Assembly (NCBI GenBank): GCA_022483465.1
Contig: JAKVNF010000002.1
Coordinates: forward strand, 806,001-870,000
From: Lachnospiraceae bacterium
Lineage (GTDB): Bacteria > Bacillota > Clostridia > Lachnospirales > Lachnospiraceae
Direction: 5' to 3'
Length of the DNA stretch: 64,000 nucleotides
Shown here: positions 24,910-56,451 of the stretch, piece after piece
How the letters are laid out: each line of letters begins with the position of its first letter
Position numbering within the stretch: the first letter of the stretch is position 1
Made by a program: the position numbers and the translations under genes
Notes under the pieces: generated by a model
The model's input: the letters and a program-made list of their open reading frames with translations, nothing else
Database searches by the model: none
Told to the model about the DNA's origin: nothing

Positions 24910-24966
24910 GCGGCATCCGGTCTCCCAAAGAGCTGCCCCATGGGCAGCTTTGTGCGCTATAAATGT

Positions 24967-25325: not shown

Positions 25326-25335
25326 ACAGTGGTAT

Positions 25336-34618: not shown

Positions 34619-34647
34619 ATGTCTTGCTTGCGAGAGATAAATCGCTT

Positions 34648-34731: not shown

Positions 34732-34762
34732 TTGCTTTTTTTAAGCAAGTTTTAAATTGAAT

Positions 34763-34846: not shown

Positions 34847-34852
34847 GGATTG

Positions 34853-38371: not shown

Positions 38372-39457
38372 TCAATCAGTCTGATTTTGTGTGAAGATTG
38401 CATCATAGTCATATGTATTATAAAACTTTCTGATGGAGTCTATATATTCTGTAGCATTCTCCTTAGTAATCTCATGTTCTCCATCATGAATACTCTGCAG
38501 AATAATACTGTTCACATTTGGATGATAATGAATGTCATCTGCATAGTTGGAGAGGTCTGTGATCAGATTGAAGTCATCATTGAGAGAATACAGATGAACA
38601 TTTGGGTATTTCAATATTACATCAATGGCATACTCCTCCATATCCACGCGTCTGTCGACCCTACCAGGTCCTGCCTGATTAGCCGAATCCCACCAAAGGA
38701 TGCTGTAAGGTGGAAAAAATAAATCAAAGCGCACATCAGGATACTGCGCAATGGTATCTGTTAGGTTCTGGGTGAGGTTAGTCTGCATGTGTTGATACCA
38801 TTCCTCTGTTTCACTTGGATCAATCGGGTCATCGGATTTCTCTGGCCTCTCATAATGATTAAGAGCTTCTTCATGATTCAGATAAGCATCGGCTTTGGCA
38901 TCCTCGCTGCTGTCATCCTCATGCTCATCCCCACTATGAGAAATTGACGCCACAACGGTCGGAATCATGGCCTCATCCCAAACATCAATATTGTATAAAT
39001 ATCGAACATCATTGAATGGATTCTCGTCATACAGATAATCCGGATATTCCGCAGTACTCGTCCAGTCAGGAGGTGTCACAAACCAAAGTGTATCAACACT
39101 TCTGATGACATGCTTCAAATCATGTTGATGTACGAGTGCGGTCTTCATATTCTCATTCAAAATGTAGAAGCCCTCCCCAAGAAATGTGGTTCGGATAAAA
39201 TTTTCGCCGAACAATTGGGAAGCCTCTTCTTCCGAAAACCCGCTGGTCATGGATGTTCCGATAATCAGCGCATCATAGTCAAAATTGCGCAACATACCAT
39301 TATTGTTATACAGCGCATTTTGTCCTCGATATTCGATTCCTTTTAATGGTTTATGAAAATGATAATATGGATCAACCACGATAACGGCTACGCCCATTGC
39401 AATAATCAAGACCGCCAAAAGAATAACCGTCCCACGAAACCATTTCTTTTCGTTCAC
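38372..39457 (-). CDS. SGNH-type partner protein of MBOAT pair 1
   Basis: The 361-residue protein starts at GTG 39457 (GAGGAG upstream), 9 bp after its MBOAT partner. One N-terminal membrane anchor (about 8-28) precedes an extracytoplasmic SGNH-like domain. IIGTSMTSGF provides the block I serine and DDIHYHPN the Asp and His near the C-terminus. An acidic insert lies at about 175-200. Proteins of this layout (DltD, AlgJ, AlgX) help transfer acyl groups from the MBOAT protein to a polymer. The gene is AT-rich. It is the last gene of the 12-gene MBOAT/SGNH run. Confidence 0.7.
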   Translation of the reverse strand: MNEKKWFRGTVILLAVLIIAMGVAVIVVDPYYHFHKPLKGIEYRGQNALYNNNGMLRNFDYDALIIGTSMTSGFSEEEASQLFGENFIRTTFLGEGFYILNENMKTALVHQHDLKHVIRSVDTLWFVTPPDWTSTAEYPDYLYDENPFNDVRYLYNIDVWDEAMIPTVVASISHSGDEHEDDSSEDAKADAYLNHEEALNHYERPEKSDDPIDPSETEEWYQHMQTNLTQNLTDTIAQYPDVRFDLFFPPYSILWWDSANQAGPGRVDRRVDMEEYAIDVILKYPNVHLYSLNDDFNLITDLSNYADDIHYHPNVNSIILQSIHDGEHEITKENATEYIDSIRKFYNTYDYDAIFTQNQTD

Positions 39458-39466
39458 TTTTTCTCC

Positions 39467-40885
39467 TCAAAAATAAGCATAAATGAAATGGGTCACTCCG
39501 GAAAGTGAAAACAGGCTAACGACAAAAAGCAGCGCGACAATCATCCGATCTAAAAGTACATGCTTTTTTTTACCAGCAATGGCCTGACTGTTCACCGGAA
39601 GCTGTGTCAGGAGACCGGCCAATGTTGCAAAGAGAATCGCAGTCACTGCGACAGGGACAGAATTCGGAACGAGATTGACCAGAATCCTCGGCAGAGATGC
39701 TGCACACATGCTCTGATCCAGGGCGCCCCAGTTTCCGCTCCGAAACAGGGAGAGGACACTTCTCAGAGTATGAAGATCCCCGGCGCGGAACAAAATCCAT
39801 GCAAAATTCACACACAGGAGCGTAATCACTCTTCCAATACCGGAGGGAAGTCTGAATCTTTTGCTGAACGCCTTATGGATCACCGTTAGGATTCCGTGGG
39901 TCATTCCCCAAAGTACAAAAGTAAACGATGCTCCGTGCCATATACCGCTGACAAGGAAAACAATCATGATATTGAGATAGGTCCGAAGCTTTCCTTTTCG
40001 ATTTCCTCCAAGCGGAATGTAGACATAATGCGTCAGAAAACGGGTTAGCGTGATATGCCAACGATCCCAAAACTCCGAGATATTATTAGCACGGTAAGGA
40101 GAATTGAAATTGATTGGCAAATCCAACCCGAGCATTCTGGCAATACCGATGGCCATGTCGCTATACCCGCTAAAATCAAAATAGATCTGCAGAGTGTACA
40201 GGACCGATGCAAACAACATGCTGGAAGCATTGATCTGATCCAGATTGGCATAAGCATAGTCAACTCCACCTCCCAAAGCATCTGCAATCAGCACTTTTTT
40301 GCTCAGGCCAATAGCGAATAATATAAGTCCGGAGGAAACTCGGCCCCAATCACTTTCAAAGTTTTGAAGCAATGGAAAAAACTGTTTTGATAACACAATC
40401 GGGCCGGATGTGATATGTGGAAAGAAAGATGAAAATACGCTGTAATCCAAGAGGGAATATTTATCATTCGGATTATGATATGCATCAACAAGAAAGGCTA
40501 TTTGTTGAAAAGTAATGAAACTGATTCCTGTTGGCAAGAGCATCTGCGGAATTTCGAGATCTGTGAGATGCAGTGCATTGCTAATCGATAATGCAAAGCC
40601 CAGGTACTTAAAGCAAAAAAGGACAAGTACATTGCAGAAAACGGAAAGGTGAAGGATCTTTCTTGCCTGCTGCGGCTTGCTACGGATTAGCCTGTAAAGC
40701 AGATAGTTGACAAGGATTTCTGCCGTGCCAAATGGAAGGTATTTTACCCCACAAAGTGCATAAAAGATTGCAGATGTGGCAAGAAGCCACCATCTGCAAT
40801 CCCGGTGCAAGTGCTGCAGGAAATACTCTCCCACCAGTGAGACCGGCAAAAATACCAGTAAAAATGGGTAGGAATTGAAAGCCAT
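39467..40885 (-). CDS. MBOAT family O-acyltransferase 1 (AlgI/DltB-like)
   Basis: The 472-residue polytopic protein shows the AlgI-type signatures PTGISFITFQQIAFLVDAY, FFPHITSGPIVL, YFDFSGYSDMAIG, SEFWDRWHITLTRFL and the catalytic histidine in VSGIWHGAS, and ends with FIYAYF, a hallmark of this family. It would move an acyl group across or at the outer face of the membrane for transfer to a glycan. It pairs with the SGNH gene directly downstream. Relative to MBOAT 2 and 3, its N-terminus lacks the basic cytoplasmic loop. Confidence 0.88.
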   Translation of the reverse strand: MAFNSYPFLLVFLPVSLVGEYFLQHLHRDCRWWLLATSAIFYALCGVKYLPFGTAEILVNYLLYRLIRSKPQQARKILHLSVFCNVLVLFCFKYLGFALSISNALHLTDLEIPQMLLPTGISFITFQQIAFLVDAYHNPNDKYSLLDYSVFSSFFPHITSGPIVLSKQFFPLLQNFESDWGRVSSGLILFAIGLSKKVLIADALGGGVDYAYANLDQINASSMLFASVLYTLQIYFDFSGYSDMAIGIARMLGLDLPINFNSPYRANNISEFWDRWHITLTRFLTHYVYIPLGGNRKGKLRTYLNIMIVFLVSGIWHGASFTFVLWGMTHGILTVIHKAFSKRFRLPSGIGRVITLLCVNFAWILFRAGDLHTLRSVLSLFRSGNWGALDQSMCAASLPRILVNLVPNSVPVAVTAILFATLAGLLTQLPVNSQAIAGKKKHVLLDRMIVALLFVVSLFSLSGVTHFIYAYF

Positions 40886-40972
40886 CTTTTTAGTCCCTAA
40901 AACAAAGTTCTTTGATTACAGCATTCATGCATTATGAACGTTGCCCATTGCAGTGTATTTTTGATCAGCATA

Positions 40973-41950
40973 TCAGTCTTCCTGGCTCAACATATTTCCA
41001 AGCACATGACTGAATTCTTCTGCCGCCTGCTCGCTGAGATGTCCGAAGCCATCGGCATACTGCGATGTATCACTGTTGAAGACAGATGTGGGCAATTCAT
41101 TCATGTTCCAGAGGGTGACACCGCAGTCCTCTGCAAGGGATTGTAAGTAGGCTTCTGCACTCTGCCGATAGTTGGCGTTGTAGTCGTAATAGACCTGTCT
41201 TCCAACCGGCATCTCCATCAGGATCAGTTCGATCCCATGCTCCTTGCAGTAAGAGGCCATCTTCCGGAGCCAGTAATCCGCCTCCTTCGTCACAGAAAAG
41301 TCGGAGTTGTCCTGTGCAATGTAAACATAGCTCCCCGTAACTGGATCGAACCCCCTGTAGTCCTGATAGGCATCAGGATTTCTCAAATACTCCAGCTTCT
41401 TGGACAGAATCTCCCCCATCCTGCTCAGGTTGTCCGTCTTCAGGGACCAGGGGCTGATGGTCACATGCCAGTTGTACTTCAGACCTGCACAGTAATACTG
41501 CAGCCTGACAGCTCCCAGTGGATAGGCATAATAGTGATTGATTCCATCATCGCGGTCACAGTATGTGGGATCCACGTCGTAAATCACACGCTTTGGCGCC
41601 TGGCCATGCTCTGCCATGAGCCGGATCAGGTAGTACTGATCCATCGGGCCGGACATGGGAATGCTGTAGTTTGCACAGGATTTTCCAGTGACCTTTGAGA
41701 CCGTGTCCGGATCCACACCTGCCCGTGCCATCGATGTGCCTATGATCACATCCTCTGCAGTGTTCTTTGCCGCCTTCTTGATCAATACGCGCATCTGAAC
41801 ATCATCGCAGAGGGCGAGCGTCAGAAAGCCGTTGATCACTGCAAAGATCAGGAGAAACAGAATCACAAACCGCCATCCGGTGTGAACTCTTTTTCCCTTC
41901 GTCTCTGCCGAATCAGCAGCTCCTGCGCTTGTTGTTATCTTCTCTTCCAT
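40973..41950 (-). CDS. SGNH-type partner protein of MBOAT pair 2
   Basis: From ATG 41950 (GGAGGG upstream) the 325-residue protein has a membrane anchor (about 28-48) and an extracytoplasmic SGNH-like domain: IIGTSMARAGVD with the block I serine and YADGFGHLSEQAAEEF with Asp and His near the end. VIYDVDPTYCDRDDG and LILMEMPVGRQVYYDY fit the inner strands. It follows MBOAT 2 by 10 bp. A DltD/AlgX-like acyl-transfer role is inferred from pairing. Confidence 0.7.
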   Translation of the reverse strand: MEEKITTSAGAADSAETKGKRVHTGWRFVILFLLIFAVINGFLTLALCDDVQMRVLIKKAAKNTAEDVIIGTSMARAGVDPDTVSKVTGKSCANYSIPMSGPMDQYYLIRLMAEHGQAPKRVIYDVDPTYCDRDDGINHYYAYPLGAVRLQYYCAGLKYNWHVTISPWSLKTDNLSRMGEILSKKLEYLRNPDAYQDYRGFDPVTGSYVYIAQDNSDFSVTKEADYWLRKMASYCKEHGIELILMEMPVGRQVYYDYNANYRQSAEAYLQSLAEDCGVTLWNMNELPTSVFNSDTSQYADGFGHLSEQAAEEFSHVLGNMLSQED

Positions 41951-41960
41951 TTTCCCTCCA

Positions 41961-43478
41961 TCAGAACTGCGCATAAATAAAGCCGGAAGCAAGTCCGTTG
42001 TTCTGGAAGATCAAGACGGAAAACATCACCCCGTAGTAGACTGCCCATCTCGCAGGACGCGGCAGCGCATCCATCTGCTCAAAAATGCTCTTTTGCCGGA
42101 TCTCCTCCAGCAGACTTTTGACCATCAGCACAAGACAGCCAAAGGCAAGGATCCCCGGCGTGAAGTGAAGATCGACAAAGATCTGTCCTGTGATCTCGTT
42201 CAGATGAAAGTCTGTGAAGGCATGGGTCAGCATGTAGTTGGATTGAGACAGCGTTGTGGGAAAATCCCAGTACCAGCTGATGGTGACCAGAATAAAGGTA
42301 ACCAGAACCTGCAGGAGGTGCAGAACCCGGTTTTGGGATGGATGCGCCGTTCCAAGCAGCGCCTCCAGGGAGATGATTACACCGTTGTACAGACCATAGA
42401 CGAGATACTTTCCGCCCTTTCCATGCCAGATTCCGACCAGAAGGAAGACCAGAATGTTGGCAATGGTCGCCTGGAGGATGGCCGCGCCTTTTCTGCCGAT
42501 GTGCTTCTTTGCTCCTTTGGTCAGTTTCCGCATCCAGCTGGAGACCGTCATGGGATAAAAGACATAATCCTTCATCCAGGTTCCCAGGGTGATGTGCCAG
42601 CGATGCCAGAAGTCAGTGATGGAGCAGGAAAAGTAAGGACGCTTGAAGTTCTCATCCAGATGGATCCCGAAGATCTCCGCCGTGCCGATCACCACATCCA
42701 TACCGCCTGCAAAATCTCCATAGAGCTGTGCCGCATAGAGAAGGGCGGTAACTGCGTAATAAGTTCCTGAGTACTCGAGGTAATTGCTGTTGACCAGGCT
42801 GACAGCAGCACCTGCACGGTCTGCAATCACGAACTTCAGGAAATATCCCCAAAGCATGCGCTGCGCGCCATGCTCCACCTGAACGAGATCCAGCCGATGT
42901 CCTGTGCAGACCATTTTTCCATCGACTTCCGTCTCGCCTGCAAGCTGGAGCATCAGCCGCTCATATCTCCCAATGGGTCCCTGCAGAATCTGCGGAAAGA
43001 AAGACACAAAGAGCATAAACCTTGTCGGATGCTGCTCCGCGCGGGTCCTTCCCCAATAGACGTCAATCAGATATCCCATCGACTGAAACGTGTAGAACGA
43101 GATGCCGAGGGGCAGTGCCCAGGTCCAGACATCAAGATACTTGAGGAAAAACAGCACGCCGAAATTCAGGACAAGGCAAAGAATGAAGACTGCTTTCTTT
43201 TTCTTCCGGATTTCCTTGCGTCTCGCTTTGTTCTCTGCCCCTCTCCCAAGCTGCTTCAGCCCATCTTCCAGGCGATCCAGAAGGCGTGCAGCAAAAAACG
43301 TGGAGAACGTGGTGAAGAGCAGGAAAAAGATGAGTGCCGGGCCATTCAGTAAATAAAAGACATAGCTGAAAATGAGTAGCACAAAATACTGATACCGGGC
43401 GGCACGCCTCGGTATCAGGTAATAAATCACAGCACAGCCTGCTGTGAACAGCAGGTAGGCAATGGATGTAAATGACAT
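41961..43478 (-). CDS. MBOAT family O-acyltransferase 2
   Basis: The 505-residue product starts at ATG 43478 after GGGAG. A long basic cytoplasmic loop (about 75-105, ENKARRKEIRKKKKA) precedes the conserved core PLGISFYTFQSMGYLIDVYWG, FFPQILQGPIGRYERL, LYGDFAGGMDVVIG, TDFWHRWHITLGTWMKDY and the catalytic His in LVGIWHGKG. It ends GFIYAQF. It is closest in layout to MBOAT 3 of this locus (same RWHITLG.WM.DYVFYP block). Substrate unknown. Confidence 0.88.
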   Translation of the reverse strand: MSFTSIAYLLFTAGCAVIYYLIPRRAARYQYFVLLIFSYVFYLLNGPALIFFLLFTTFSTFFAARLLDRLEDGLKQLGRGAENKARRKEIRKKKKAVFILCLVLNFGVLFFLKYLDVWTWALPLGISFYTFQSMGYLIDVYWGRTRAEQHPTRFMLFVSFFPQILQGPIGRYERLMLQLAGETEVDGKMVCTGHRLDLVQVEHGAQRMLWGYFLKFVIADRAGAAVSLVNSNYLEYSGTYYAVTALLYAAQLYGDFAGGMDVVIGTAEIFGIHLDENFKRPYFSCSITDFWHRWHITLGTWMKDYVFYPMTVSSWMRKLTKGAKKHIGRKGAAILQATIANILVFLLVGIWHGKGGKYLVYGLYNGVIISLEALLGTAHPSQNRVLHLLQVLVTFILVTISWYWDFPTTLSQSNYMLTHAFTDFHLNEITGQIFVDLHFTPGILAFGCLVLMVKSLLEEIRQKSIFEQMDALPRPARWAVYYGVMFSVLIFQNNGLASGFIYAQF

Positions 43479-43654
43479 AACTCCCTCGTAGAATTTCTCT
43501 TTGACTCTGCTGAGTTCTCAATTGCTGCCACGCTACGGCCCTTATGATGAGCTACATTGGGAAATGCAGTACGTCATCTATTGCGTGAAATCAAGGACCT
43601 CACGATATGAAGGCCAGACCTGACTATGATTCGTTTCCAGGTACGACAAATGGT

Positions 43655-44812
43655 CTACTGTGCAGTCTTTGTGGACTTCCAATCAACCGTGCTGGGATCT
43701 ACCCCCTCATCGATCGAGTAACCCTGAGAACGGATGATAACGCGCGAGAGCATCTGCGCATACTTTTTCCGGTTCTCCGGTGACATGTGGATGCCGTCCT
43801 CCAACAAGTTGTCCTTTGCATTAGAGGCATTGATATTAAGGCAGTCATAAGGATTCATATAACTGACATTTCCCTGGTTAATCGAAGAGACCACATTTTG
43901 AGCTGCACAGGCATAGTCGTAAAGAGTGCCATATCCGTAATTCAAGGTATTGGAATCTCCGGTATATGTTCCATTATTAAAGAACTGGGCATAACCTGGC
44001 CCGCAGATGACAATCGCCGAATCTGGGAAGGTGCTGCGCAGGCGATAGATAATGGTCTGCAGCGCAGAGCGGTATGCCTTGGACGGATTGGTGGAATCAT
44101 CAATCGGAATCTTGGACAGGAAATCGTTGACGCCATACTCCACAACAAAGACATCGGTCTTGGAGAAGTCACAGCCAGCAAAGACCTTTCTCTGATAATC
44201 AATCTCGGAATACTGCTGCAGGAAATCCGGTGAGACATCCCCCACAATCGCATAGGTCATGCCCAGACCGCCGTCGGACTCCCAGGACTGCAGATCCTGT
44301 CCCTGGGTGAGAGGAACAGCTGCCGTGGTGCCGCCGATGGCGAGATTATACACATTTGCATCGCAGTACTGGGAGATCTGGTAGGCCAGGCCATCATATC
44401 CCTTGTAGTTTCCAAATTGGGAGTCTCCGATGACCACGATCTGCATGGTGGCGTCTGCGCCAATCAGTGTGTTGACACAGTCATCGGTATATTGGATGCC
44501 AAGATCATACGGATTATTCGGATCCCTCTCCACCGTCTCCGTTACAGCCTCGGTCGAAGCCTCCGTGGAAGCTTCCGCTGCTGCCGTTTCCGCTGTGGTG
44601 GAAGCCTCCGCGGCAATCTCTGAAACCGCTTCCGTGCTGGCCTCCGTGGCAGCGGTTGTTTCTGCCGCTGTTGTCTGCTGTATGCTTGCGGTTTCTGCTG
44701 CCTGGTCTGTCTGTTTCTCTCCACAGGCAGTGATCGCAGCGGCAAGTAACCCCGCTGCGATCACCCTGAAAACTTTTCTATTCTTCAATTGTTGTTCTCT
44801 TTCCTCAGGCAT
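43655..44812 (-). CDS. SGNH/GDSL lipoprotein with Thr/Ala/Glu-rich linker
   Basis: The 385-residue protein has a lipoprotein signal with the lipobox ITAC (Cys30), a low-complexity linker of Ala, Thr, Glu and Ser (about 31-95) and an SGNH hydrolase domain: VVIGDSQFGNY (catalytic Ser), NLAIGGTT, VEYGVNDFLS and LEDGIHMSPENRKKY (Asp/His). All four block residues are present, so it is probably an active extracytoplasmic esterase or acyl transfer factor. Its start overlaps the carrier-protein gene by 8 nt; a TTG 24 nt further in (GAGGAAAGAG upstream) is an alternative start. Confidence 0.82.
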   Translation of the reverse strand: MPEEREQQLKNRKVFRVIAAGLLAAAITACGEKQTDQAAETASIQQTTAAETTAATEASTEAVSEIAAEASTTAETAAAEASTEASTEAVTETVERDPNNPYDLGIQYTDDCVNTLIGADATMQIVVIGDSQFGNYKGYDGLAYQISQYCDANVYNLAIGGTTAAVPLTQGQDLQSWESDGGLGMTYAIVGDVSPDFLQQYSEIDYQRKVFAGCDFSKTDVFVVEYGVNDFLSKIPIDDSTNPSKAYRSALQTIIYRLRSTFPDSAIVICGPGYAQFFNNGTYTGDSNTLNYGYGTLYDYACAAQNVVSSINQGNVSYMNPYDCLNINASNAKDNLLEDGIHMSPENRKKYAQMLSRVIIRSQGYSIDEGVDPSTVDWKSTKTAQ

Positions 44813-45032
44813 CCTGGAGTCTCTTTACCATAGCATAGAGTGCCTTTGCACTGTTGAAATTTGCCGGCACAATCTCTGATGCGGGAATTGAGATGTCATA
44901 GGCATCGTTCAGCTCGCTGATGATCTGGAGGATATCAAACGAGTTGAGAATTCCATCGTCGATCAGTGTGGTGCAGTTTGCAAAGTCCACATCGTCCTTC
45001 ACATCTGATAAAATCTGAATCAGTTCATCCAT
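44805..45032 (-). CDS. Acyl/aminoacyl carrier protein (DltC-like)
   Basis: This 75-residue acidic helical protein carries the phosphopantetheine attachment Ser31 in DDGILNSFDILQIISEL. It would hold the substrate activated by the adenylating enzyme three genes' length upstream (46.4-47.9 kb). ATG 45032 follows AAGGAAAAA. Its overlap with the SGNH lipoprotein gene shows coupled expression. Size and helix pattern fit DltC and stand-alone peptidyl carrier proteins equally well. Confidence 0.88.
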   Translation of the reverse strand: MDELIQILSDVKDDVDFANCTTLIDDGILNSFDILQIISELNDAYDISIPASEIVPANFNSAKALYAMVKRLQDA

Positions 45033-45121
45033 GAGATTTTTCCTTTCGTTTCCGTGTATTCTCTCTTTACTCCTGCTGCCATTATCAGAAGGCTATGCCT
45101 GCATTCCCAGGCCGCATTCTA

Positions 45122-46363
45122 TCACATTCTGTCCATGGTGCCGCAGACCGTATTGATGGGACTGGTCTTCTTTGCATCCCTCGCAAGGAGCCAGCTTCCA
45201 TCCGGCTGTACCAGGACAATTTTGGGCAGATTCCTGCTCAAGAACAGGTACATCGCCTCCGTAACAGAATAAGCGCCGATGTTCTCAAATGCAAGCACAT
45301 CCCCAGGACAAAGCTCTGCCATCCTGACCGAGCGCACCAGATCATCGTTCGTCGTGCAGAGGCTCCCGCACAGGGCGTACTCGTGATTCTCATCGTCCTG
45401 TATGCGGCGATATGATACCTCGGCAGGGCTCTGATCCGGATCTCCGTTTCCCTGATAGTGCCGAATCACCGGCAGCTTCATCCCCATCAGCTGGCCCAGA
45501 TAGTTGACATGATGAATCCCCCCATCCGCGATGCAGTAGTGCTTGTCGCCTGCTGTCTTTAGATCCATGACCCGGGTCAGGTAGAATCCGCACTCTGTGG
45601 CCAAAAAGCGTCCCGCCTCCACCGTGAGTTCTGCGAACTTCGCCACGTGCTGCAGCGCAGGGGCCAGTTCTCTGGCAGGAGCCAGGGTATCCGAAAAGTC
45701 ATCTCCCGCAAACAGAGGGACCGGAAGTCCCGGGCCGTATTCCAGTTTCTGCAGGACAAAGCCGTGCTGCTCTCTCACCTCCCGGAACAGGTCCTCCAGC
45801 ATCCGGAGCTCATCCTTCTGCTGATGCAGATCCCGGTTCTTCCGTTGCGTGCCCACAAAGTAGTGAATGCCCACGATGTCGATGCCGGGGTAATCCTGTC
45901 TGTGATCGATGACCGACAGCAGATCCTCCTTCGACATGCCAAACTGCGATCCGTGATTTAACCGAAGCAGCACCGGGATGATTTTGCCCGCCCGCAGGGC
46001 CTCGGCATTCAGAATCTTCACGTGGCGAAGGGACTCTGCGGTACAGCATCCCACTGCATCCCCGATGGCCTGCCGCACATCCCCGGGTTCCTTGTTGACA
46101 CCGGAATACACCACCTTCTCCATCGGGACAGACAGACTCTCACAGATCTCCAGCTCTCCCGGGCTGCATACCTCCAGCCGGTCTGCCGCCTCTGCCGCTG
46201 CCGGGATCAGGAACGGATTTGCTTTTACCGAATAGCACAGGAAAATGTGCTCCCCCAGAATGTCGCGTACTTCCCGGATCCGCCTTTGAAATGCACCTGC
46301 ATCAAACACGTATGTCGGTGTCCCGTACTTCTGCAGGATGCCGATCAGCGTATGATCTTCCAT
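45122..46363 (-). CDS. Fold-III PLP-dependent decarboxylase homologue (LysA/ornithine decarboxylase-like)
   Basis: The 413-residue product has the alanine-racemase-like barrel of diaminopimelate/ornithine decarboxylases. The PLP lysine is in CYSVKANPFLIPAAAEA near residue 48; HYFVGTQ replaces HxHIGSQ, EYGPGLPVPLF sits where the Gly-rich phosphate loop is expected, EAGRFL replaces EPGR, and CGSLCTTNDDL supplies the conserved active-site Cys. These changes suggest a substrate other than diaminopimelate. ATG 46363 lies 9 nt after AAGGG; GTG 46369 is also possible. The gene lies between an adenylating enzyme and a carrier protein, which suggests it makes or trims the amino acid to be activated. 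No dapF or lysine gene is nearby. Confidence 0.82.
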   Translation of the reverse strand: MEDHTLIGILQKYGTPTYVFDAGAFQRRIREVRDILGEHIFLCYSVKANPFLIPAAAEAADRLEVCSPGELEICESLSVPMEKVVYSGVNKEPGDVRQAIGDAVGCCTAESLRHVKILNAEALRAGKIIPVLLRLNHGSQFGMSKEDLLSVIDHRQDYPGIDIVGIHYFVGTQRKNRDLHQQKDELRMLEDLFREVREQHGFVLQKLEYGPGLPVPLFAGDDFSDTLAPARELAPALQHVAKFAELTVEAGRFLATECGFYLTRVMDLKTAGDKHYCIADGGIHHVNYLGQLMGMKLPVIRHYQGNGDPDQSPAEVSYRRIQDDENHEYALCGSLCTTNDDLVRSVRMAELCPGDVLAFENIGAYSVTEAMYLFLSRNLPKIVLVQPDGSWLLARDAKKTSPINTVCGTMDRM

Positions 46364-46380
46364 CTTCACTTTCCCTTCAT

Positions 46381-47910
46381 TTACTTTCCGCCATGATACT
46401 GATCCATCAGTGCATGCCGGTCAATCTTGCCGTTCTTGTTGAGCGGCATCCTGTCAATCTGAATGGTCCGATTCGGCACCATAAAGTCCGGCAGTCTGGT
46501 GCGCAGGTCTTTTTCCAGTTCCTTTTTATCCCGGTCTCCCGTGTAGAACAGAACCAGTTTCTTCTTCTCACTGTCATAGATGCAGCAGGCCCTGGTGACC
46601 CCGTCGCAGGCCATCGCATCGGTCTCAATCTCACCGAGCTCGATCCGGTGTCCCAGATGCTTGATCTGAAAGTCCTTCCGGGACACATAGATGAGATTTC
46701 CCTGCGCATCATATTTGCCCAGATCCCCGGTGCGATAGATCCGCTCCGGCCAGGCCTCATTCAGGGGATTCTGCACAAAGACGGCCTCCGTCTTTTCCCG
46801 CTCCCGGTAATACCCGGCCGCAACGCAGGTGCCGCCGACACAAATCTCACCGACCTCTCCCTCACCGGTTACTTCCTGATCCTGTTCATCCAGAAGGAAT
46901 ACCTTTTCATTCGGGAAGGGCTTTCCCGCCGGGATCACCTCATCCAGGGCATAGGTCTTTGCCGGATCCAACACAAAATAGGTGCAGTTGCAGGTGATCT
47001 CCGTGGGACCGTAGAGATTGACATATGCCGCATCCGGCAGGTACTTTCTCCAGATGTTCAGCTGTTTCACCGGCATCACCTCGCCGCTGAAGAGAACCTT
47101 GTTCACGCTCTCCGGGGTCCGGTACGAAAATCCGTTCATGATAGACACAAAGCACATGGCGCTCACTGCCCAGACCAGGGTGGTGACTGCATGATCAGCA
47201 AGGTAATCCATCAGTGCCGTCGGATTCACAAAGTAGCTCCTTGGAATCAGAACCGTCCTGGCACCGGTGTACAGGCCGCTGTAGATGTCCTTGACGGAGA
47301 CATCAAAGTCAAACGGCGCCTGGTTTCCCATCACATCATCTCTGGTGATGCCGAACGTCTTGTCAAAGATCGGAATGAAGTCGATCACGGAGCGGTGGCA
47401 GACTACCACCCCCTTCGGGATGCCGGTGCTGCCGGAGGTAAAGTTCACGTACAGGGGATCCGTGTCGAGGCAGGTGCTGCGGATGCGGGACAAAACGGCA
47501 GGATCCGCCTTTGGTCTCTGTTCTTCCAGCTCTTCCAGATCGATTACCCGGTACTGCGGTGCAAAGAGCTCTCTTGCCGTCTCCAGGTTCTCATGATCTG
47601 CAAAGATCACCGCGGGATCCAGCTTGGTGATCACCGTCTGCAGCCTCGTCTTTGGCTGACGAAGGTCGATAAAGGAATAGAATCCTCTCGCATAGACCGT
47701 GCCCATCATGCCGATCACCGCAGCAACGCTCTTTTCCATAAAAAATGCCACGGGCCGATTTGCGACGCCGATGCCGGCAAGAGTGGTACCGATGCCCTCC
47801 GCCTGTTCCCGAAGTGCACCCCAGGTGATGCTGCCCATCGGGTCCTCAAAGGCGGCTCTGTTTGGATCTGCTGCAGCCGTATGTTCCAGCCAGTCAAGAA
47901 TGGTGTTCAT
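46381..47910 (-). CDS. DltA-like amino-acid/acyl adenylating enzyme
   Basis: The 509-residue AMP-forming ligase would activate a carboxylate and load it on the carrier protein at 45.0 kb. Adenylation motifs are all present: FTSGSTGIPKGVVV (P-loop), NLYGPTEITC, YRTGDLGKY, GHRIELGEIE and the catalytic lysine in NKNGKIDR. The substrate-pocket motif reads LFSGEVMP, with Ser275 where DltA enzymes have the Cys (FCGEVLP) linked to D-alanine selection, so the substrate may not be D-alanine. ATG 47910 follows GGGGGA; a GTG 12 nt earlier is less likely. It lies 11 bp before the PLP-enzyme gene in one operon. Confidence 0.88.
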   Translation of the reverse strand: MNTILDWLEHTAAADPNRAAFEDPMGSITWGALREQAEGIGTTLAGIGVANRPVAFFMEKSVAAVIGMMGTVYARGFYSFIDLRQPKTRLQTVITKLDPAVIFADHENLETARELFAPQYRVIDLEELEEQRPKADPAVLSRIRSTCLDTDPLYVNFTSGSTGIPKGVVVCHRSVIDFIPIFDKTFGITRDDVMGNQAPFDFDVSVKDIYSGLYTGARTVLIPRSYFVNPTALMDYLADHAVTTLVWAVSAMCFVSIMNGFSYRTPESVNKVLFSGEVMPVKQLNIWRKYLPDAAYVNLYGPTEITCNCTYFVLDPAKTYALDEVIPAGKPFPNEKVFLLDEQDQEVTGEGEVGEICVGGTCVAAGYYREREKTEAVFVQNPLNEAWPERIYRTGDLGKYDAQGNLIYVSRKDFQIKHLGHRIELGEIETDAMACDGVTRACCIYDSEKKKLVLFYTGDRDKKELEKDLRTRLPDFMVPNRTIQIDRMPLNKNGKIDRHALMDQYHGGK

Positions 47911-47937
47911 ATTTTCCCCCACTATGATTTTATGTTG

Positions 47938-49059
47938 TCAGTCGTGTGCAAACTCCCACGGATCATAAAACAGATCTGTGACCTCTTCGCCCGCATCCAG
48001 CCTCTTCAGCGTGGTTCCGAGAAACCGGGAGAACTTCGCAGCACCGGAGCTGTTCAGATGCCCCACATCATGATAATCCGTACCGGAGAGCGCAAACGCA
48101 CTCTCCCGGGTCAGATTGAAATCCAGAAAGGAAAAGCCGTAAGAGGAAAACAGGTCCTTCAGCTCATCCGTGATGGCCGCATAATCTGCAAGGCGATAGA
48201 TATTCAGGTAGTTGGGATACGGGACAACCACCGCGGTGAGTTCGATTCCATTCTCCCTGCAGAAGGCACAGATTTCCTTCAGATTTGTCTCATTTTCCCG
48301 ATTCAGGTCCAGCTCGTGGAAGGTCGAATTCCGCTGCTTTTCGTCCCACGCTGCCGCCTCCTCTAGCGTCACGAAGTGAATGCTCTGGTCCACCACACCT
48401 TCTCCCGGCTCGTATCCATTGGAAAGGCGGTGTCCCGTATCGTCCAGTACTTTCCCCGCAAGCTTTTCCCTGACATTCCGCTTTAGATCTGTGCTCCGGT
48501 TATAGACCCAGGGCGTGAGGAACGTCAAACTTGCCGAGGTCTTGATCCAAACCGGATTGGTGACGAAGGACCCGATCGTCTTCAGATTGTCCGGAAAGGA
48601 TTCACTCCTTGCCCGCGCCATCCACAGAGCCTGTTCTGCCCTCCGGCTGTCTGCCCGTCTCAGTGACAGCACCTCGTGGTCGATTACCAGCAGCACCCGC
48701 TTGATGGCTTTTGTTTCTGCCGCTTCCCGGATGATCTCCCGTGAGGATGCCAGAGACTGCATGTTGGTGGACATGTTGTAGGAGGAGGACCCGAGAGCAG
48801 GATCCAGGTACTCCGGATTGATGCCCTTCAGGCCCTGAGAGGTGCCGACAATAATCGTATCCGGCGGATTCTCTTCCGCCCTTGCCTCATAACCATACCA
48901 CATCTCCTCGGAAGAGCTCCGGTAGGGTTCCATCAAAAAGCACAGGAGCTGATTGAGGCCAAGCAGGATCGCAAGGAAAAGAAGAAAGCCTGCCGCCCTC
49001 CCTGTCCTTGTCCTTCCCTGCGGTGTTCCTGTTCTCTCCTGCGTCTTAGAAGTTTGCAT
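47938..49059 (-). CDS. SGNH-type partner protein of MBOAT pair 3
   Basis: The 373-residue protein starts at ATG 49059 (GGGAGG), overlapping the MBOAT 3 gene by 14 nt. It has a membrane anchor (about 20-42) and an extracytoplasmic SGNH-like domain with IIVGTSQGLKGIN (block I Ser) and DYHDVGHLNSSGAAKFS (Asp/His). VLLVIDHEVLS and LTAVVVPYPNYLNIY fit core strands. The tight overlap with MBOAT 3 points to a working pair. Confidence 0.72.
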   Translation of the reverse strand: MQTSKTQERTGTPQGRTRTGRAAGFLLFLAILLGLNQLLCFLMEPYRSSSEEMWYGYEARAEENPPDTIIVGTSQGLKGINPEYLDPALGSSSYNMSTNMQSLASSREIIREAAETKAIKRVLLVIDHEVLSLRRADSRRAEQALWMARARSESFPDNLKTIGSFVTNPVWIKTSASLTFLTPWVYNRSTDLKRNVREKLAGKVLDDTGHRLSNGYEPGEGVVDQSIHFVTLEEAAAWDEKQRNSTFHELDLNRENETNLKEICAFCRENGIELTAVVVPYPNYLNIYRLADYAAITDELKDLFSSYGFSFLDFNLTRESAFALSGTDYHDVGHLNSSGAAKFSRFLGTTLKRLDAGEEVTDLFYDPWEFAHD

Positions 49060-50626
49060 AGAGAAATCCTCCCGCTGTGGTAGTAAAGACAAAGGACGCA
49101 AAGACCAAAAGGAGGCACATTCCGCTGAAGACATAGGTCCAGCCTGCTGCCCTCTTCAGAAGCCTTCCCTCGCAGTCGATTCCTCTCTCCTTCTGCAGGC
49201 TGACCGCAAGAACCATTCCCGTCCCGATCAGGGCAAGGCCAAAGCTGCCCAGCGTGTTGGTCATCCCACCAAGGCCCTCCAGGATGATGTTCCGGAAGTG
49301 GAAACCAAAATGCGCACCATCAAAGGCCGTGAAGGTCTGGCGGAATGCCAGCATGCAGTCATGGAAGTCATAAATCCGATCAAAGTACCAGCCGATGTTC
49401 ACGATCACAAATGTCCGGAGGACCCGGAACACATGAAAGCCCCTTGATGCGGTATTCATCCGGAGTTTCCCCGCAAGCCACTGCCAGAATGGTGCCGTAA
49501 GATCGCTTAAGGCGATCACAATGCCGTTGTAGAGGCCCCAGAGAAGATAGTGGCTCTGCGCTCCGTGCCAGAGTCCTACAAGAAAGAACACCGCGATGTT
49601 GGCAATACCCGCAGGGATCGTCCTGCCGGCATGTTTCCCAAAGTGCCTGGTGCACCATTTCCCAAGTTTCTGCATTCCCCGGGTCAGCGCCAGCGGATAA
49701 AACACATAGTCCCGCATCCAGGCGCCCAGCGTGATGTGCCATCTGCGCCAGAAATCCCCCAGGGAGACCGAAAAGTAGGGCTGGCGGAAGTTCTGGTCCA
49801 GCTCCACGCCAAAGAGGGCGGAAATCCCCCGGATGATGTCAATGCCCCCGGAAAAATCGGCATACTGCCAGACGGAATACAGGAGGATTCCGAATACCAC
49901 CATGCAGCCAGGCCGGCCTGCCATGTCCCCGGAATCAAAGATTGCAGCGATTGCGGGATTCAGCATGTCGGCGACGGCATACTTCTTCACCAGTCCGAAC
50001 AGCATCAGAAGCAGTGCCCGTTCTGTCCTCTCCCGATCGATTGCATGCGGCGCATACAGAGAAGCGGAAAGGCGGTCATACCTTCCGATCGGTCCCTGCA
50101 GCATCTGGGGAAACCAGGAGACAAAGAGCAGGAAACGGGCAAAATTGCGCTCCGGCGGATACTTCCCACCGTACTGATCGATCAGATACCCCACCGCCTG
50201 AAACGTGTAGAACGAGATTCCAATGGGCAGAAAGATACTCTTTGCATGGAGCAGAACACGGAAGTACTTAAACCAGGCGAGAATGCCGAAGTTTAATACC
50301 ATCACCAGAATCAGGACAATCCGCTTCTTGCGCAGGGTTGCCGCCTTCCATCTTGCTCGGGAAGCGCGGTCCGGTGCTTCCTTTTTCTTCTGCCGATACT
50401 GCAGTTCCAGGCTTGAGAGCAGGATTCCTCCCGCATATACCGTCGCAGCAGTAACCATCAGGAACAGGATGTGAACCTGACCTTGAATCAGATAAAACAA
50501 GAGGCTTCCCGCCAGCAGGATTGTCCACTGATATCGATCTGCTGCTTTGCAGATGCGTGGGATCGCATAGTAGCTAATCGCCAGCAGGACAATCAATAAC
50601 AGATATAGAAAGGAAAAGAGTTCCAA
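49046..50626 (-). CDS. MBOAT family O-acyltransferase 3
   Basis: The 526-residue product begins at TTG 50626 with GGAGA upstream. It has a basic cytoplasmic loop (about 75-102), then PIGISFYTFQAVGYLIDQYGG, WFPQMLQGPIGRYDRL, QYADFSGGIDIIRG, GDFWRRWHITLGAWMRDYVF and the catalytic His in LVGLWHGAQ, and ends GGFLYANF. It is paralogous to MBOAT 2. It pairs with the overlapping SGNH gene downstream. Confidence 0.88.
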   Translation of the reverse strand: MELFSFLYLLLIVLLAISYYAIPRICKAADRYQWTILLAGSLLFYLIQGQVHILFLMVTAATVYAGGILLSSLELQYRQKKKEAPDRASRARWKAATLRKKRIVLILVMVLNFGILAWFKYFRVLLHAKSIFLPIGISFYTFQAVGYLIDQYGGKYPPERNFARFLLFVSWFPQMLQGPIGRYDRLSASLYAPHAIDRERTERALLLMLFGLVKKYAVADMLNPAIAAIFDSGDMAGRPGCMVVFGILLYSVWQYADFSGGIDIIRGISALFGVELDQNFRQPYFSVSLGDFWRRWHITLGAWMRDYVFYPLALTRGMQKLGKWCTRHFGKHAGRTIPAGIANIAVFFLVGLWHGAQSHYLLWGLYNGIVIALSDLTAPFWQWLAGKLRMNTASRGFHVFRVLRTFVIVNIGWYFDRIYDFHDCMLAFRQTFTAFDGAHFGFHFRNIILEGLGGMTNTLGSFGLALIGTGMVLAVSLQKERGIDCEGRLLKRAAGWTYVFSGMCLLLVFASFVFTTTAGGFLYANF

Positions 50627-50700
50627 GACAATCTCCTATCCGTAATTCCGTCAGTCTTTTGCGCTATATACACCGAGCAGGGCGTATCCTTCACCTGTGA

Positions 50701-51663
50701 TCATGAACCAGATCTCTCAATCACTCCCGCCTGTTTCAGATCCTGCAGAAGGAGCGTGGTGCGAAGCGCCTCCCCCTTATTGTTACAGTGGTAAACCGTA
50801 TCATACATATCGTCCCTTGGAAAGAAGTAATCCTCTGGATTGGAGAGATAGGGGATGCCGATCTCCTTCTCCTCTTCCTCCTTCAGGCGCTGAAACTCTG
50901 CGGTGTCACAGTCCACCGCCTCCTCCCAGAGGGGAGGTGCGATAAAGTACACGCTGGCACCTTTGGACTCCACATACTGTTTGAAACATTTCAAGTACTG
51001 CACACTCTCCTCGGAGATAGACACCCCCGTCAGGTCCACCGGGTTGTAGTAATCCTCTCCCTCGGTAAATTCCCCCATGATGCAGTCCGGGCGGTCCAGA
51101 ATCATCCTGCCGTCTGTATCAAAGATGGTGTAGTGGTGATCCTCCCCGGGATTCGCCTCATGCGCCCGCTTGTCCTCCGCATAGGAAAAGAGATAGCCCA
51201 GAATCTGATTCCAGTTTTTCGCCGGCACATACCGGTAGAGGCCGATGTCGTCATCAATGCCGGACATCACCGTATCCGACAGGATGTCTGTAAAGGCACT
51301 CTCCTCCATCCAGTTGTACTCATAGGCAAGCAGGACAATGTCACCCTCGCCGAGATTCGCCTTGACCAGCTCTGTCTGAAACAGATCTCCAAAGCCGGCA
51401 TAGAGCCCCAGATTTGCCACCTGCATCCCAGTTGCCGCTTCCAGTGCCTCCTCATCAATGCCATAGGCACAGTTGGAGCCGCCGGTGATGACAATCTTTT
51501 TTCCGGTCAGGCTCTGATAATACCGGACTTTGTCCTGGATCGCACTCTGGTAGGTATTGGAGAAGACGCCCCGGGGGTACAGCACGATGGCACAGAAGGT
51601 CACAGCAATCAGAAGCACCGCAATGGCCAGTGTACCTATCACATATCCCGCAAACTTTTTCAA
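50701..51663 (-). CDS. SGNH-type partner protein of MBOAT pair 4
   Basis: The 320-residue protein has an N-terminal membrane helix and a divergent SGNH-like domain: IVITGGSNCAYGID (block I Ser) and YDTVYHCNNKGEALRT, where Asp and His fall at the expected C-terminal site. TTG 51663 lies 5 nt after GGGAGG; GTG 51669 is too close to that site. It is the least typical of the SGNH partners; the Asn-rich HCNNKG block resembles DltD-like proteins of Firmicutes. It lies 77 bp after MBOAT 4. Confidence 0.65.
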   Translation of the reverse strand: MKKFAGYVIGTLAIAVLLIAVTFCAIVLYPRGVFSNTYQSAIQDKVRYYQSLTGKKIVITGGSNCAYGIDEEALEAATGMQVANLGLYAGFGDLFQTELVKANLGEGDIVLLAYEYNWMEESAFTDILSDTVMSGIDDDIGLYRYVPAKNWNQILGYLFSYAEDKRAHEANPGEDHHYTIFDTDGRMILDRPDCIMGEFTEGEDYYNPVDLTGVSISEESVQYLKCFKQYVESKGASVYFIAPPLWEEAVDCDTAEFQRLKEEEEKEIGIPYLSNPEDYFFPRDDMYDTVYHCNNKGEALRTTLLLQDLKQAGVIERSGS

Positions 51664-51746
51664 TTCCACCTCCCTGGCCGCAAATGCGGCCGAAAAGGAA
51701 ATCCGTTAAAACAAGAGCCGGTACCCGGCGGATGCTGCCCGCCTTC

Positions 51747-53204
51747 TCAGAACGCAAAGTAGATGAACTTCGTATTGGTTGCCGTATCTCCGGAGCAGAC
51801 CGCAAAGACAGACAGCACAAGAAGCAGGGCAAGGCACAGCATCTGCACAAGGGCCGGGGCACTTCGAAATCTTCGGTATGCGCCGGAGCGCAGCACGTGC
51901 TGCTTGAAGCCGTTTTCCTCTCGGTGGATTTCTCCCCGCCGCAGATACTGGACAAGCAGGAAAAACAGCACCGACAGGAGGGCTGTGGCAAACAGGACAT
52001 TGTCCTTGTCAAACATCTGCTGGGGATAGAATCCTGAAAACATCCAGGGGCGGATCGTAAAGATGCCCTTCAGCATGACCAGCGCCGCCTCCACGGTTCC
52101 GGCACGGAAAAAGATAAAGGCAAGGGAAAACAGGAGAAATACGATCAGTCTTCGGATCCACAGGAGCCATCCCGCATCCTCTCGGATGTGAAGCCTGCTT
52201 CGCAGGCCTCTTCGAAAGCCATCCGTCAGCTCGCCGATGACCAGGAGGATCCCGTTTACGACACCCCAGATCACAAAGTGCAGTCCCTGACCGTGCCAGA
52301 GGCCACTGATCAGAAAAACCACCATGATGTTGCAGTACTTCCTCACAGTTCCCTTTCGGGAGCCTCCCAGGGGAAAGTAGACGTTCTCGACAAACCAATC
52401 ATTCAGGCTGACATGCCAGCGGTTCCAGAGCTCTTTGAGGTTGACGGAAAGGAAGGGATTGTCAAAGTTCCGCTCCACGGAAAAACCGAGCATTGCAGAG
52501 GTCCCGATGGCCATGTCGGAATAGCCGGCAAAATCCGCATAGAGCTCGATGGAGAACAACATCGCCGCAGCAAGATGATAGAGGCCGTTGTAGTAGCCCG
52601 GAGCATCAAAGACATAGGCAACTGCCCCGGAGAGGCGGTCCGCCACGCAGGTCTTGACAAACATGCCCCAGACGAACAGGAGAAACCCGTGAATCAGCTG
52701 CTCCTGATCCGGATTCTTCGGCGATGCAAGCTGCGGAAGAAGGTATCTCGCCTTCTGGATCGGTCCGGAGAGGACAGAGGGGAAAAAGGAGACAAAGGCG
52801 AAGAGGCGAAGAAAGTTGTGCTCAGCCGGGATCCTGTCCCGGTAGACATCCCGCAGATAGTAAGCGGCCTGAAAGATGTAAAAGGAAAGCCCCACCGGGA
52901 GGGAGATGCCGCGGTAGTTGAAGATCTTATATCCGACCAGGATAGCAACCGTCAGGGCAAAGAACAGGGTAAAGAAGCCCCTCTTCTGCTTCGGGCTTTT
53001 CGCCCGCTCGATCAGCAATCCTCCGAGGTAGATGATTCCGGTCGCAAGAAAAAGGAGCACCACTCGGAGCGGGCTCCCCCAGCCGTAGAAGACGCAGCCT
53101 GCAGCTGCCATCACCAGGTACTTATGATCGGGGTTTTTCACCAGTCGGTATGCCACCAGGACAAGGAGAAAAAACACTGCAAATGTCAGGGAAATCAGGT
53201 TCAT
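51747..53204 (-). CDS. MBOAT family O-acyltransferase 4
   Basis: The 485-residue polytopic product has PVGLSFYIFQAAYYLRDVYRD, FFPSVLSGPIQKARYL, LYADFAGYSDMAIGTS, KELWNRWHVSLNDWF, VYFPLGGSRKG and the catalytic His in ISGLWHGQG, and ends KFIYFAF. The PLGGxRKG block shared with MBOAT 1 puts these two closer together than to 2 and 3. ATG 53204 lacks a clear ribosome site. It appears to be the first gene of the 12-gene run. Confidence 0.87.
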   Translation of the reverse strand: MNLISLTFAVFFLLVLVAYRLVKNPDHKYLVMAAAGCVFYGWGSPLRVVLLFLATGIIYLGGLLIERAKSPKQKRGFFTLFFALTVAILVGYKIFNYRGISLPVGLSFYIFQAAYYLRDVYRDRIPAEHNFLRLFAFVSFFPSVLSGPIQKARYLLPQLASPKNPDQEQLIHGFLLFVWGMFVKTCVADRLSGAVAYVFDAPGYYNGLYHLAAAMLFSIELYADFAGYSDMAIGTSAMLGFSVERNFDNPFLSVNLKELWNRWHVSLNDWFVENVYFPLGGSRKGTVRKYCNIMVVFLISGLWHGQGLHFVIWGVVNGILLVIGELTDGFRRGLRSRLHIREDAGWLLWIRRLIVFLLFSLAFIFFRAGTVEAALVMLKGIFTIRPWMFSGFYPQQMFDKDNVLFATALLSVLFFLLVQYLRRGEIHREENGFKQHVLRSGAYRRFRSAPALVQMLCLALLLVLSVFAVCSGDTATNTKFIYFAF

Positions 53205-55341: not shown

Positions 55342-56451
55342 CTATTTCGTCTGTCGTGTGCCTTTGTGCATATTAGAAGCAATCATTTTTGCCGTTCTTA
55401 TGACCAATCCTTGCAATGGTTTTATGGCAAGTGACAGTCCAGTACAAATTAGCAATACCCATATCACAATTGGTATTCCCAAATGTGGCGCAAACGCAAT
55501 CCCTTGGAATGTTTTATTTGGCGTAAAAAAGAGCGCCTGTAGGAACCAAATGTTCGAACTGTTTGCTGCAATAGCATCAATCGTCGGGCCGATAAATGTC
55601 AGCTTGTTCTTCAAAGTTCTTCCAATATTCACTGCGCTGTAGATAAATGCTGGAGCATAAATAAAATCTAAGTTCAGCATTTCTGTATTGATGTAGTAAT
55701 GCGCCGGTATGCATGTAGTCAATACAATAGCATTTAGTAAAATATATGTATGTTTTCTAAATATTTTTAAGCAGTGCTCTTGCAGTCTAGAGAACGTCCC
55801 TTCTTTTGCAATAATATATCCCGTCATAACAACCTGTGACCAAAACATGAAATGTTCCGCCCATGAGCCTGTTATCCCTGTCTGTTTAAAAGCAGTCGTT
55901 ATTCCCGTCATCGTTGCCAAAGAAAGTAAGAATTTAATGACGATGTGTCCGTTTTGAAAAATATGCTGGAGAAGAGGAACCGTAATTAGCATTACCTCTG
56001 CATAAAAAAACACATACCAGGCAAAATTGCAGTGAATTCCCGGTCCAAAATTCATGATTCCAGCCAAGTCAAGAATCAATTGTTTTTTATTTGGCATCGG
56101 TTCTCCAGCAATGGCCCCGGCAATATAAATAAACGCAAGTGCAGTCCAATAAGTTAGATAAAATTCTGCTAATTTGCATAACCTATATTTGAGTTTTATG
56201 TATTCTTTGTTAATAAATACCGCATATCCAGTGATAAAAGCAAAGATCGATACGCAAAATCTATTCCACAAACCTATTGTCGCCTCTAGATCTTGTCCAC
56301 CAATAAGATATGTATATTTAGTATACTTCGGTAATACCCAGCTCGGAAATCCCCAAAAATGGTGAACTATCATCATAGCGATAGCGATTGCCTTTAAATA
56401 ATTGCTGGCATTCTTCGTCAAGAATGTATCTTTCTCGAATCTTTCTTTCAT
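55342..56451 (-). CDS. Acyltransferase-3 family membrane protein
   Basis: The 369-residue protein has ten or more membrane helices and begins with a helix carrying IAMMIVHHFWGFP, the histidine-containing motif of acyltransferase-3 (OafA-like) enzymes. The segment IHCNFAWYVFFYAEVML fits the second conserved region. It would O-acylate a surface glycan using a cytoplasmic acyl donor. Low GC content suggests transfer with its neighbours. No SGNH domain is fused. Confidence 0.75.
   Translation of the reverse strand: MKERFEKDTFLTKNASNYLKAIAIAMMIVHHFWGFPSWVLPKYTKYTYLIGGQDLEATIGLWNRFCVSIFAFITGYAVFINKEYIKLKYRLCKLAEFYLTYWTALAFIYIAGAIAGEPMPNKKQLILDLAGIMNFGPGIHCNFAWYVFFYAEVMLITVPLLQHIFQNGHIVIKFLLSLATMTGITTAFKQTGITGSWAEHFMFWSQVVMTGYIIAKEGTFSRLQEHCLKIFRKHTYILLNAIVLTTCIPAHYYINTEMLNLDFIYAPAFIYSAVNIGRTLKNKLTFIGPTIDAIAANSSNIWFLQALFFTPNKTFQGIAFAPHLGIPIVIWVLLICTGLSLAIKPLQGLVIRTAKMIASNMHKGTRQTK

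Follow-up and report, generated by a model that had tools for sequence, protein, structure and literature searches.

A Dlt-like gene cassette with a candidate carrier-bound decarboxylase and four MBOAT–SGNH pairs in a Lachnospiraceae genome

What might a gut bacterium do with four membrane-bound O-acyltransferase (MBOAT) genes, each with an SGNH-like partner, packed around a single set of genes for an adenylating enzyme, a pyridoxal phosphate (PLP)-type enzyme and a carrier protein? This arrangement occurs in a 64,000-nucleotide stretch of a Lachnospiraceae bacterium genome (contig JAKVNF010000002.1, positions 806,001 to 870,000; hereafter the window), as a twelve-gene minus-strand run at 38372–53204. 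Its order in transcription is MB1, SG1, MB2, SG2, AMP, PLP, ACP, SGL, MB3, SG3, MB4 and SG4, where MB denotes an MBOAT, SG its SGNH-like partner, AMP the adenylating enzyme, PLP the putative decarboxylase, ACP the carrier and SGL an SGNH/GDSL lipoprotein. We number the pairs 1 to 4 along transcription, the reverse of the original prediction for this DNA, whose MBOAT4 is our MB1. That prediction pictured a Dlt-like machine in which one loading core serves four delivery pairs. We assign a probability of roughly 0.55 to a narrower reading, in which MB2, SG2, AMP, PLP and ACP form a Dlt-like envelope aminoacylation pathway with a built-in decarboxylation step.

For this pathway we infer the substrate, the product, the order of loading and decarboxylation, and a surface polymer as the acceptor. 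AMP would activate an acidic amino acid (Asp or Glu), presumably via its side-chain carboxylate, and load it onto ACP. PLP would remove the free alpha-carboxylate on the carrier, leaving beta-alanyl- or 4-aminobutyryl-ACP. MB2 would carry this group through the membrane and place it on the tyrosine in its C-terminal F-x-Y-x-x-F tail, a part that would stand in for the separate DltX peptide, and the SG2 serine would accept the group and then esterify the polymer. MB3–SG3 probably serves as a second such outlet, SGL is a possible esterase or further acceptor, and MB1–SG1 and MB4–SG4 would be neighbouring pairs whose more likely cargo is a different acyl group, probably acetyl supplied by acetyl-CoA. 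Because the amino acid would seemingly be trimmed on the carrier, the envelope may receive a different, so far unseen group.

The PLP enzyme (45122–46369, minus strand, as are all twelve genes) was assigned as an alanine-racemase-fold, BtrK-like decarboxylase from its PDB matches, its profile and its active-site loop. As a single sequence it matched BtrK best in the PDB (117 bits; the top diaminopimelate decarboxylase reached 99), and with a 16-row profile the two scores were 205 and 169 bits, SbnH (6knk) scoring about equally to the best diaminopimelate decarboxylase. The active-site loop reads C-[T/S] in all 48 core-linked PLP rows (C-T in the window), and C-E in six other decarboxylases of the same loci and in the genome's own LysA-like protein. 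With BtrK as its closest match, the C-T signature and a carrier gene next to it, PLP fits the type of BtrK, a decarboxylase of a glutamyl-carrier, and on-carrier decarboxylation is what we propose for it. The possibility that PLP is the genome's LysA was rejected: it scored 164–168 bits on TIGR01048 (lysA; cut-off 298), it has C-T and not C-E, and a separate LysA-like protein is present, itself also below the cut-off with 269 bits.

Comparable systems are known from other settings. The exosortase A-associated ligase and decarboxylase (TIGR03098 and TIGR03099) are the same two enzyme types as AMP and PLP, with 188 and 158 bits, but these scores lie far below the cut-offs of 592 and 478, and we know of no MBOAT partner for them. 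In butirosin biosynthesis, BtrK, the nearest solved structure, likewise has an adjacent carrier, BtrI; the BtrI carrier is charged by another kind of ligase and the product enters an antibiotic, whereas the cassette has a DltA-like enzyme and an MBOAT–SGNH pair. By its logic the core can also be likened to VinN–VinL–VinO, the FlvN pathway and AfcQ–AfcK–AfcP, trios of a stand-alone adenylating enzyme, a stand-alone carrier and a PLP decarboxylase in which (methyl)aspartate is loaded via its side chain and decarboxylated on the carrier; these differ in yielding macrolactams or a lipopeptide, without membrane transfer machinery. BtrK is reported to act on glutamyl-BtrI, and FigC, SbnH, AcsE and MccE, its allies, likewise use amino acids tethered to a larger moiety (PMC7857480); VinO acts on 3-methylaspartyl-VinL in the vicenistatin pathway (PMC11284099), and AfcP acts on aspartyl-AfcK in that of AFC-BC11 (PMC12186527). 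On-carrier decarboxylation has been shown for the vicenistatin and AFC-BC11 trios (PMC11284099, PMC12186527), and it is because of them that loading followed by on-carrier decarboxylation is proposed here.

AMP (46381–47922) is a stand-alone amino acid adenylating enzyme, with 318.2 bits on TIGR01733 (cut-off 317.4), and no other adenylating enzyme in the source genome matched it at 1e-10. Its pocket segments, FDFDVSVKD, WAVSA, FSGE and GP[T/S]E[I/V]TCN, were present in 42 of 45 rows; their PheA position numbers, taken from an alignment to LgrA, are presumed. The three exceptions (L065, L072 and L074) are without the usual Asp. In these loci the gene order is AMP–ACP–PLP (8206–11185 in L065), and their pocket sequence, LDYIAAIRD, lacks the Asp to which the amino group is usually bound; the subgroup probably has another substrate or binding mode. 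The pocket evidence gives no choice between Asp and Glu as the putative substrate of AMP. 4-Aminobutyryl esters can cyclise, which would favour beta-alanine slightly.

The core is conserved beyond the window. We compared 48 PLP-holding loci, made up of the window, 27 named loci and 20 loci from other relatives, and annotated them with profiles built from the window proteins; the 27 came from a species-level genome collection and are biased to close kin, because they were found via exact short peptide patterns. PLP matches at 1e-40 occurred in 39 of 117 genomes, the window's own included. AMP and ACP each lay within 3.5 kb of the PLP gene in 45 of the 48 loci, and an MBOAT lay within 2 kb of the core in 39. 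The raw MBOAT count within 7 kb of the core was one in 31 loci, none in nine and two in six, with three only in L046 and four only in the window; one of the two-MBOAT loci reflects a broken gene in L086, which, counted once, gives 32 single-MBOAT loci. Since the counts are mostly one, the conserved unit is an MBOAT, an SGNH protein, AMP, PLP and ACP, usually with one pair, and the four pairs of the window are an extreme. The expectation that the core would recur with its MBOAT–SGNH genes in other genomes thus held for the core with a pair, and four MBOATs within 7 kb were found nowhere else among the 48 loci.

Full five-gene sets were present in Lachnospiraceae, Erysipelotrichaceae, Gemmiger and Slackia (Actinomycetota), among them Gemmiger formicilis ATCC 27749, Eubacterium ramulus ATCC 29099, Lachnospira multipara ATCC 19207 and Butyrivibrio sp. 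INlla14, named strains that make the reading directly testable by envelope chemistry. We tentatively extend it, at odds somewhat short of even, to a widespread class in gut Bacillota and at least one actinomycete (Slackia exigua), which would gain a cationic group by decarboxylating an acidic amino acid on the carrier and would place beta-alanine or 4-aminobutyrate esters on the envelope, with PLP-less relatives of other pockets adding other amino acids. SGNH–MBOAT–AMP–ACP cassettes without a PLP gene were seen in relatives of the same genus (L103, L104, L106 and L117–L123), with several different adenylation pockets, and form a family of Dlt-like systems that perhaps load other amino acids. 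The core might instead produce a small molecule, or act on a lipid or protein rather than a surface polymer, as the natural-product pathways from which such trios have otherwise been described would suggest, yet this is hardly credible with an MBOAT beside the core in 39 of 48 loci and an SG2 partner that folds like DltD. Ten neighbour genes from six loci, including those for valyl-tRNA synthetase, HerA, DnaX, a hydrogenase, a Mur ligase and a thioester-domain surface protein, were mostly housekeeping or unassigned and gave little help on the polymer.

The locus closest to the window in layout, L046 (6021–19180), has the core between two MBOAT–SGNH pairs, with an MB1/SG1-type pair after an 861-amino acid open reading frame (ORF) without a Pfam match. 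A counterpart of SGL (43655–44812) adjoins the carrier in L086, L061, L062 and, as two ORFs, L102. The MB3 counterpart in G040 (L086, 4606–6122) and the SGL counterpart in G006 (L102, 1159–2255) are each split into two ORFs, by assembly error or decay.

The remaining core proteins resemble those of Dlt (DltA–DltC–DltB–DltX–DltD) in kind: an adenylating enzyme, a small dedicated carrier, a DltB-fold MBOAT with its His and a DltD-fold SGNH protein, through which the relay from carrier to Tyr to Ser to polymer would run as in Dlt. A profile of MB2 (49046–50626) had DltB as its only PDB match at E 0.01, over positions 128–419 of 524, and Foldseek ranked DltB first (5.9e-13) for its predicted fold. 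The part beyond the matched region forms further helices in the model and bears the shuttle motif, its last seven residues having low confidence; the shuttle Y523 and catalytic H354 are invariant in 27 of 27 rows. SG2 (47938–49059) has no Pfam family, but its AlphaFold model (pLDDT 91) gave DltD entries in all of the first six Foldseek rows (best E 1.6e-5), and G72, S74 and H334 are invariant in 21 of 21 rows. ACP (44805–45032; Pfam PP-binding 21.1 bits, cut-off 20.8) is DltC-like in profile comparison, with its phosphopantetheine serine, in ILNSFDIL, kept in 45 of 45 rows. The conserved neighbourhood, the DltB- and DltD-like folds and the DltC-like carrier bear out the earlier proposal of a Dlt-like machine with a loading core.

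All four window MBOATs have the catalytic His and the C-terminal F-x-Y-x-x-F (FIYFAF in MB1, FLYANF in MB2, FIYAQF in MB3 and FIYAYF in MB4). Among 71 MBOAT ORFs, the C-terminal sequence is F-[ILVM]-Y-x-x-[F/Y] in 54 and a variant of it starting with M, L or Y in 15; the remaining two are fragments. Fusion of this motif to the MBOAT is shared with PatA–PatB and AlgI-type pairs. The PatA shuttle tyrosine is acetylated and its group then handed to PatB, and in Dlt the same motif sits on the separate DltX (PMC12148441). For such a peptide, the ORFs surveyed here had at least 55 amino acids. PatA uses acetyl-CoA, whereas MB2 and MB3 go with the carrier core; MB1 and MB4 may be of the plain PatA/AlgI kind.

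These parts could also belong to an ordinary Dlt system for D-alanine to which one unusual gene has been added. DltB-, DltC- and DltD-like proteins and the 259–270 bits that AMP reaches on DltA models are what such a system would show, but we consider it very improbable. AMP falls far under the curated DltA cut-offs (259 of 560 bits on TIGR01734, 270 of 476 on NF003417), the TIGR01734 cut-off was passed in none of the 117 related genomes against two of 14 control genomes, and PLP, AMP and ACP stay together across families. In the NCBIfam library scan, which took ten of the twelve window proteins and left out MB1 and SG1, the DltB equivalog TIGR04091 was not reached (MB2 153, MB3 169 and MB4 166 of 375 bits), nor were the DltC equivalogs by ACP (32 of 68 and 20 of 52 bits). 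The cassette further differs from Dlt in its built-in decarboxylase, in a shuttle tyrosine fused to the MBOAT tail where that of Dlt is on DltX, and in sometimes having more than one MBOAT–SGNH pair. It is Dlt-like by working and not a Dlt member by family models.

Which of the four pairs belong to the core was addressed with a tree of 67 MBOAT sequences (quick search, SH-like approximate likelihood ratio support only, window rows left unlabelled), where core-adjacent means within 2 kb and such rows came mostly from loci chosen by the PLP protein, not by the MBOAT. One clade (support 99) held all 41 core-adjacent MBOATs together with MB2, MB3 and four non-adjacent rows; 38 of the 41 lie by a PLP-containing core and three by a PLP-less AMP–ACP core (L103, L104 and L106). 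MB1 (51747–53204; Pfam MBOAT 94 bits) grouped (100) with four non-adjacent rows, none within 2 kb of a core, and MB4 (39467–40885) fell in a group of 12 (99) whose other 11 rows are all non-adjacent. MB3 (41961–43478) is 96% identical to genes adjoining the core in G006 and G040, the nearest two genomes, 65% identical to a gene at a contig edge in G037 (L094), with no core seen on that contig, and below 48% to the remaining matches listed. SG3 is 93% identical to its counterpart in L102. No MB2 match above 40% was found in G006, whose contig breaks inside PLP, or in G040, whose contig breaks just before AMP.

Relatives of MB1 (49–54%) occur in G005, G015 and G049. Those in G005 and G015 are followed by a glycosyltransferase-52 and an ABC transporter gene; 3.3 kb ahead of the one in G005 is also a gene for an AMP-binding enzyme that is unrelated (21% to AMP). 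G005 and G049 yielded no PLP match at 1e-40; G049 has a PLP-less AMP–ACP–MBOAT–SGNH set on a contig other than that of its MB1 relative. In G040, three glycosyltransferase genes come before the MB4/SG4 relative (L105), with no core in the 20 kb read, and the relative in the window's own genome (L095) has like-sized neighbours, compared by size alone. The SG proteins nearest SG1 are partners of MB1 relatives, and SG4 relatives adjoin MB4-type MBOATs. The tree and these contexts suggest that pairs 1 and 4 probably use an acyl-CoA donor.

The original prediction had one core feeding all four pairs, each for another polymer or position. The tight packing of twelve genes on one strand and the His and shuttle tyrosine kept in all four MBOATs fit this, as do an MB1-type pair 5.3 kb from the core in L046 and the outside-clade MBOATs that six more loci (L040, L041, L042, L050, L052 and L068) have at about 5–9 kb from the core; the window is thus not alone in having such MBOATs loosely near a core. 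Nonetheless we judge it improbable, as MB1 and MB4 lie outside the core-adjacent clade and relatives of MB1 (L091 and L092) and MB4 (L105) stand in glycan clusters without a core of this kind. Sharing of the core is supported for pair 2 and plausible for pair 3, which is of the core clade and adjoins the core in G006 and G040, though the coreless contig edge of the 65% relative in G037 weakens it; for pairs 1 and 4 it found no support. The four-pair proposal reduces to one well-supported outlet, one likely outlet and two pairs of other origin. SGNH and MBOAT partners co-vary (r 0.88 over 59 pairs), as expected from shared descent alone, which is no argument either way.

Several findings weigh against the MB2–SG2–AMP–PLP–ACP pathway. 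Nine of the 48 loci have no MBOAT within 2 kb of the core; a contig end lies less than 700 bases from the core on one side in four of them (L053, L063, L064 and L069), but the other five (L049, L058, L066, L073 and L077) have none within 2.6 kb, the nearest in L077 being at 2.6 kb. MB2-type MBOATs occur without a core and without a PLP match in G021, G035 and G059 (in G059 on a 4.7-kb contig), and G039 has a second MB2-type MBOAT on a contig other than that of its core. The TM-score between SG2 and DltD is only about 0.4, no DltD sequence model was matched by SG2, SG3 or SG4, and the curated DltA, DltB and DltC models were missed by wide margins. The 20 AMP rows from loci without a nearby PLP gene show several other pockets, but L103, L121, L123 and L125 share the PLP-linked one and L106 nearly does, so the pocket does not require the decarboxylase. 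None of 13 PLP-less same-genus genomes, those of L103, L106, L121 and L123 included, matched PLP at 1e-10 with the query that matches 39 of 117 at 1e-40; the genome of L125 was tested only at 1e-40. No arginine like VinN Arg331 was seen in the AMP pocket segments, compared without position mapping. All 20 PLP-less rows keep Lys 239, which is therefore no proof of decarboxylation.

Two candidate rules were dropped on these counts: a strict correspondence of the PLP gene to one pocket (four of 20 PLP-less rows share it, a fifth nearly), and the idea that Lys 239 proves an acidic substrate linked with the decarboxylase. Pocket and decarboxylase are associated, not locked together.

PLP could instead decarboxylate or racemise an amino acid that is free, and feed the monomer to AMP, so that the carrier never holds the uncut acid. 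Its fold is common to diaminopimelate decarboxylase and alanine racemase, and the relatives that share the pocket, fully or almost, but lack a PLP gene (L103, L106, L121 and L123) would draw their monomer from another source. We regard this as unlikely, if by no means negligible: the closest structure is BtrK, and both BtrK and SbnH use tethered substrates (PMC7857480), free beta-alanine is reportedly not activated by AfcQ, which adenylates in a comparable trio (PMC12186527), and VinN reportedly does not accept the decarboxylated acid (PMC11284099).

Textbooks give D-alanine as the amino acid esterified to Gram-positive envelopes. If decarboxylation on the carrier holds, a second ester chemistry would change the view of surface charge and of resistance to host cationic peptides in gut Clostridia: the attached group would have a more basic amine than D-alanine, a beta-alanine ester would probably be longer-lived, and the ester code of the envelope would extend beyond D-alanine and acetyl. 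The likely role of the PLP enzyme and the C-terminal shuttle motif of the MBOATs go beyond the original prediction. In the open-licence literature no title or abstract was found to report a decarboxylase as part of a Dlt-like system, a weak negative, nor was the combination of a carrier-bound decarboxylase with a fused shuttle found in print there. The cassette would join carrier-fed MBOATs (Dlt, with DltX) and acyl-CoA-fed MBOATs with the shuttle on their own tail, which PMC12148441 treats separately.

The ORFs fill the twelve-gene span in the order first described. The 8-nucleotide overlap (ACP with SGL), the 14-nucleotide overlap (MB2 with SG2, from the ATG at 49059) and the longest gap of 176 bp (43478 to 43655) were all confirmed, and all four MBOATs keep WHG and pass Pfam MBOAT. 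The SGNH labels are firm for SGL, with GDSQ, GVND and DGIH motifs and 43.2 bits on Pfam Lipase_GDSL_2 (cut-off 32.9), and for SG2 by predicted fold. SG1 (50701–51669; GGSN ... YHCNNKG), SG3 (40973–41974; GTS and a GFGH stretch) and SG4 (38372–39457; GTS and DDIHYHP) exceeded no Pfam cut-off and are labelled by an N-terminal G-[T/G]-S, a C-terminal Asp/His motif and the MBOAT next door; the SG3 start codon is uncertain, its open frame reaching 41992. The source genome (4.3 Mb) has 11 MBOATs; when 200,000 random draws place them uniformly among 4,300 genes, four fall within an 11-gene span in about 1.5e-5 of the draws.

On the 5' side, on the same strand, lie genes for a DUF6020 membrane protein (53345–55150) and an acyltransferase-3 (55342–56451); an acyltransferase-3 is also found near the MB1 relative in L091. 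A promoter-like site with TG (53261–53233) precedes MB1; the promoter scan gave 27 sites against 20 expected and the terminator scan 29 against 17, and the site is not usable as evidence. Scans of the window placed no Rfam or tRNA feature inside the run, and plasmid searches gave matches all below 60% identity. On the 3' side is FeoB (35898–38240), then an ORF (35187–35669) that we take to resemble an IS200-type transposase, and two tandem tRNA-Leu genes (34647–34847). The window also contains the class A RNase P RNA (24962–25326) and tmRNA (10086–10452), both on the minus strand.

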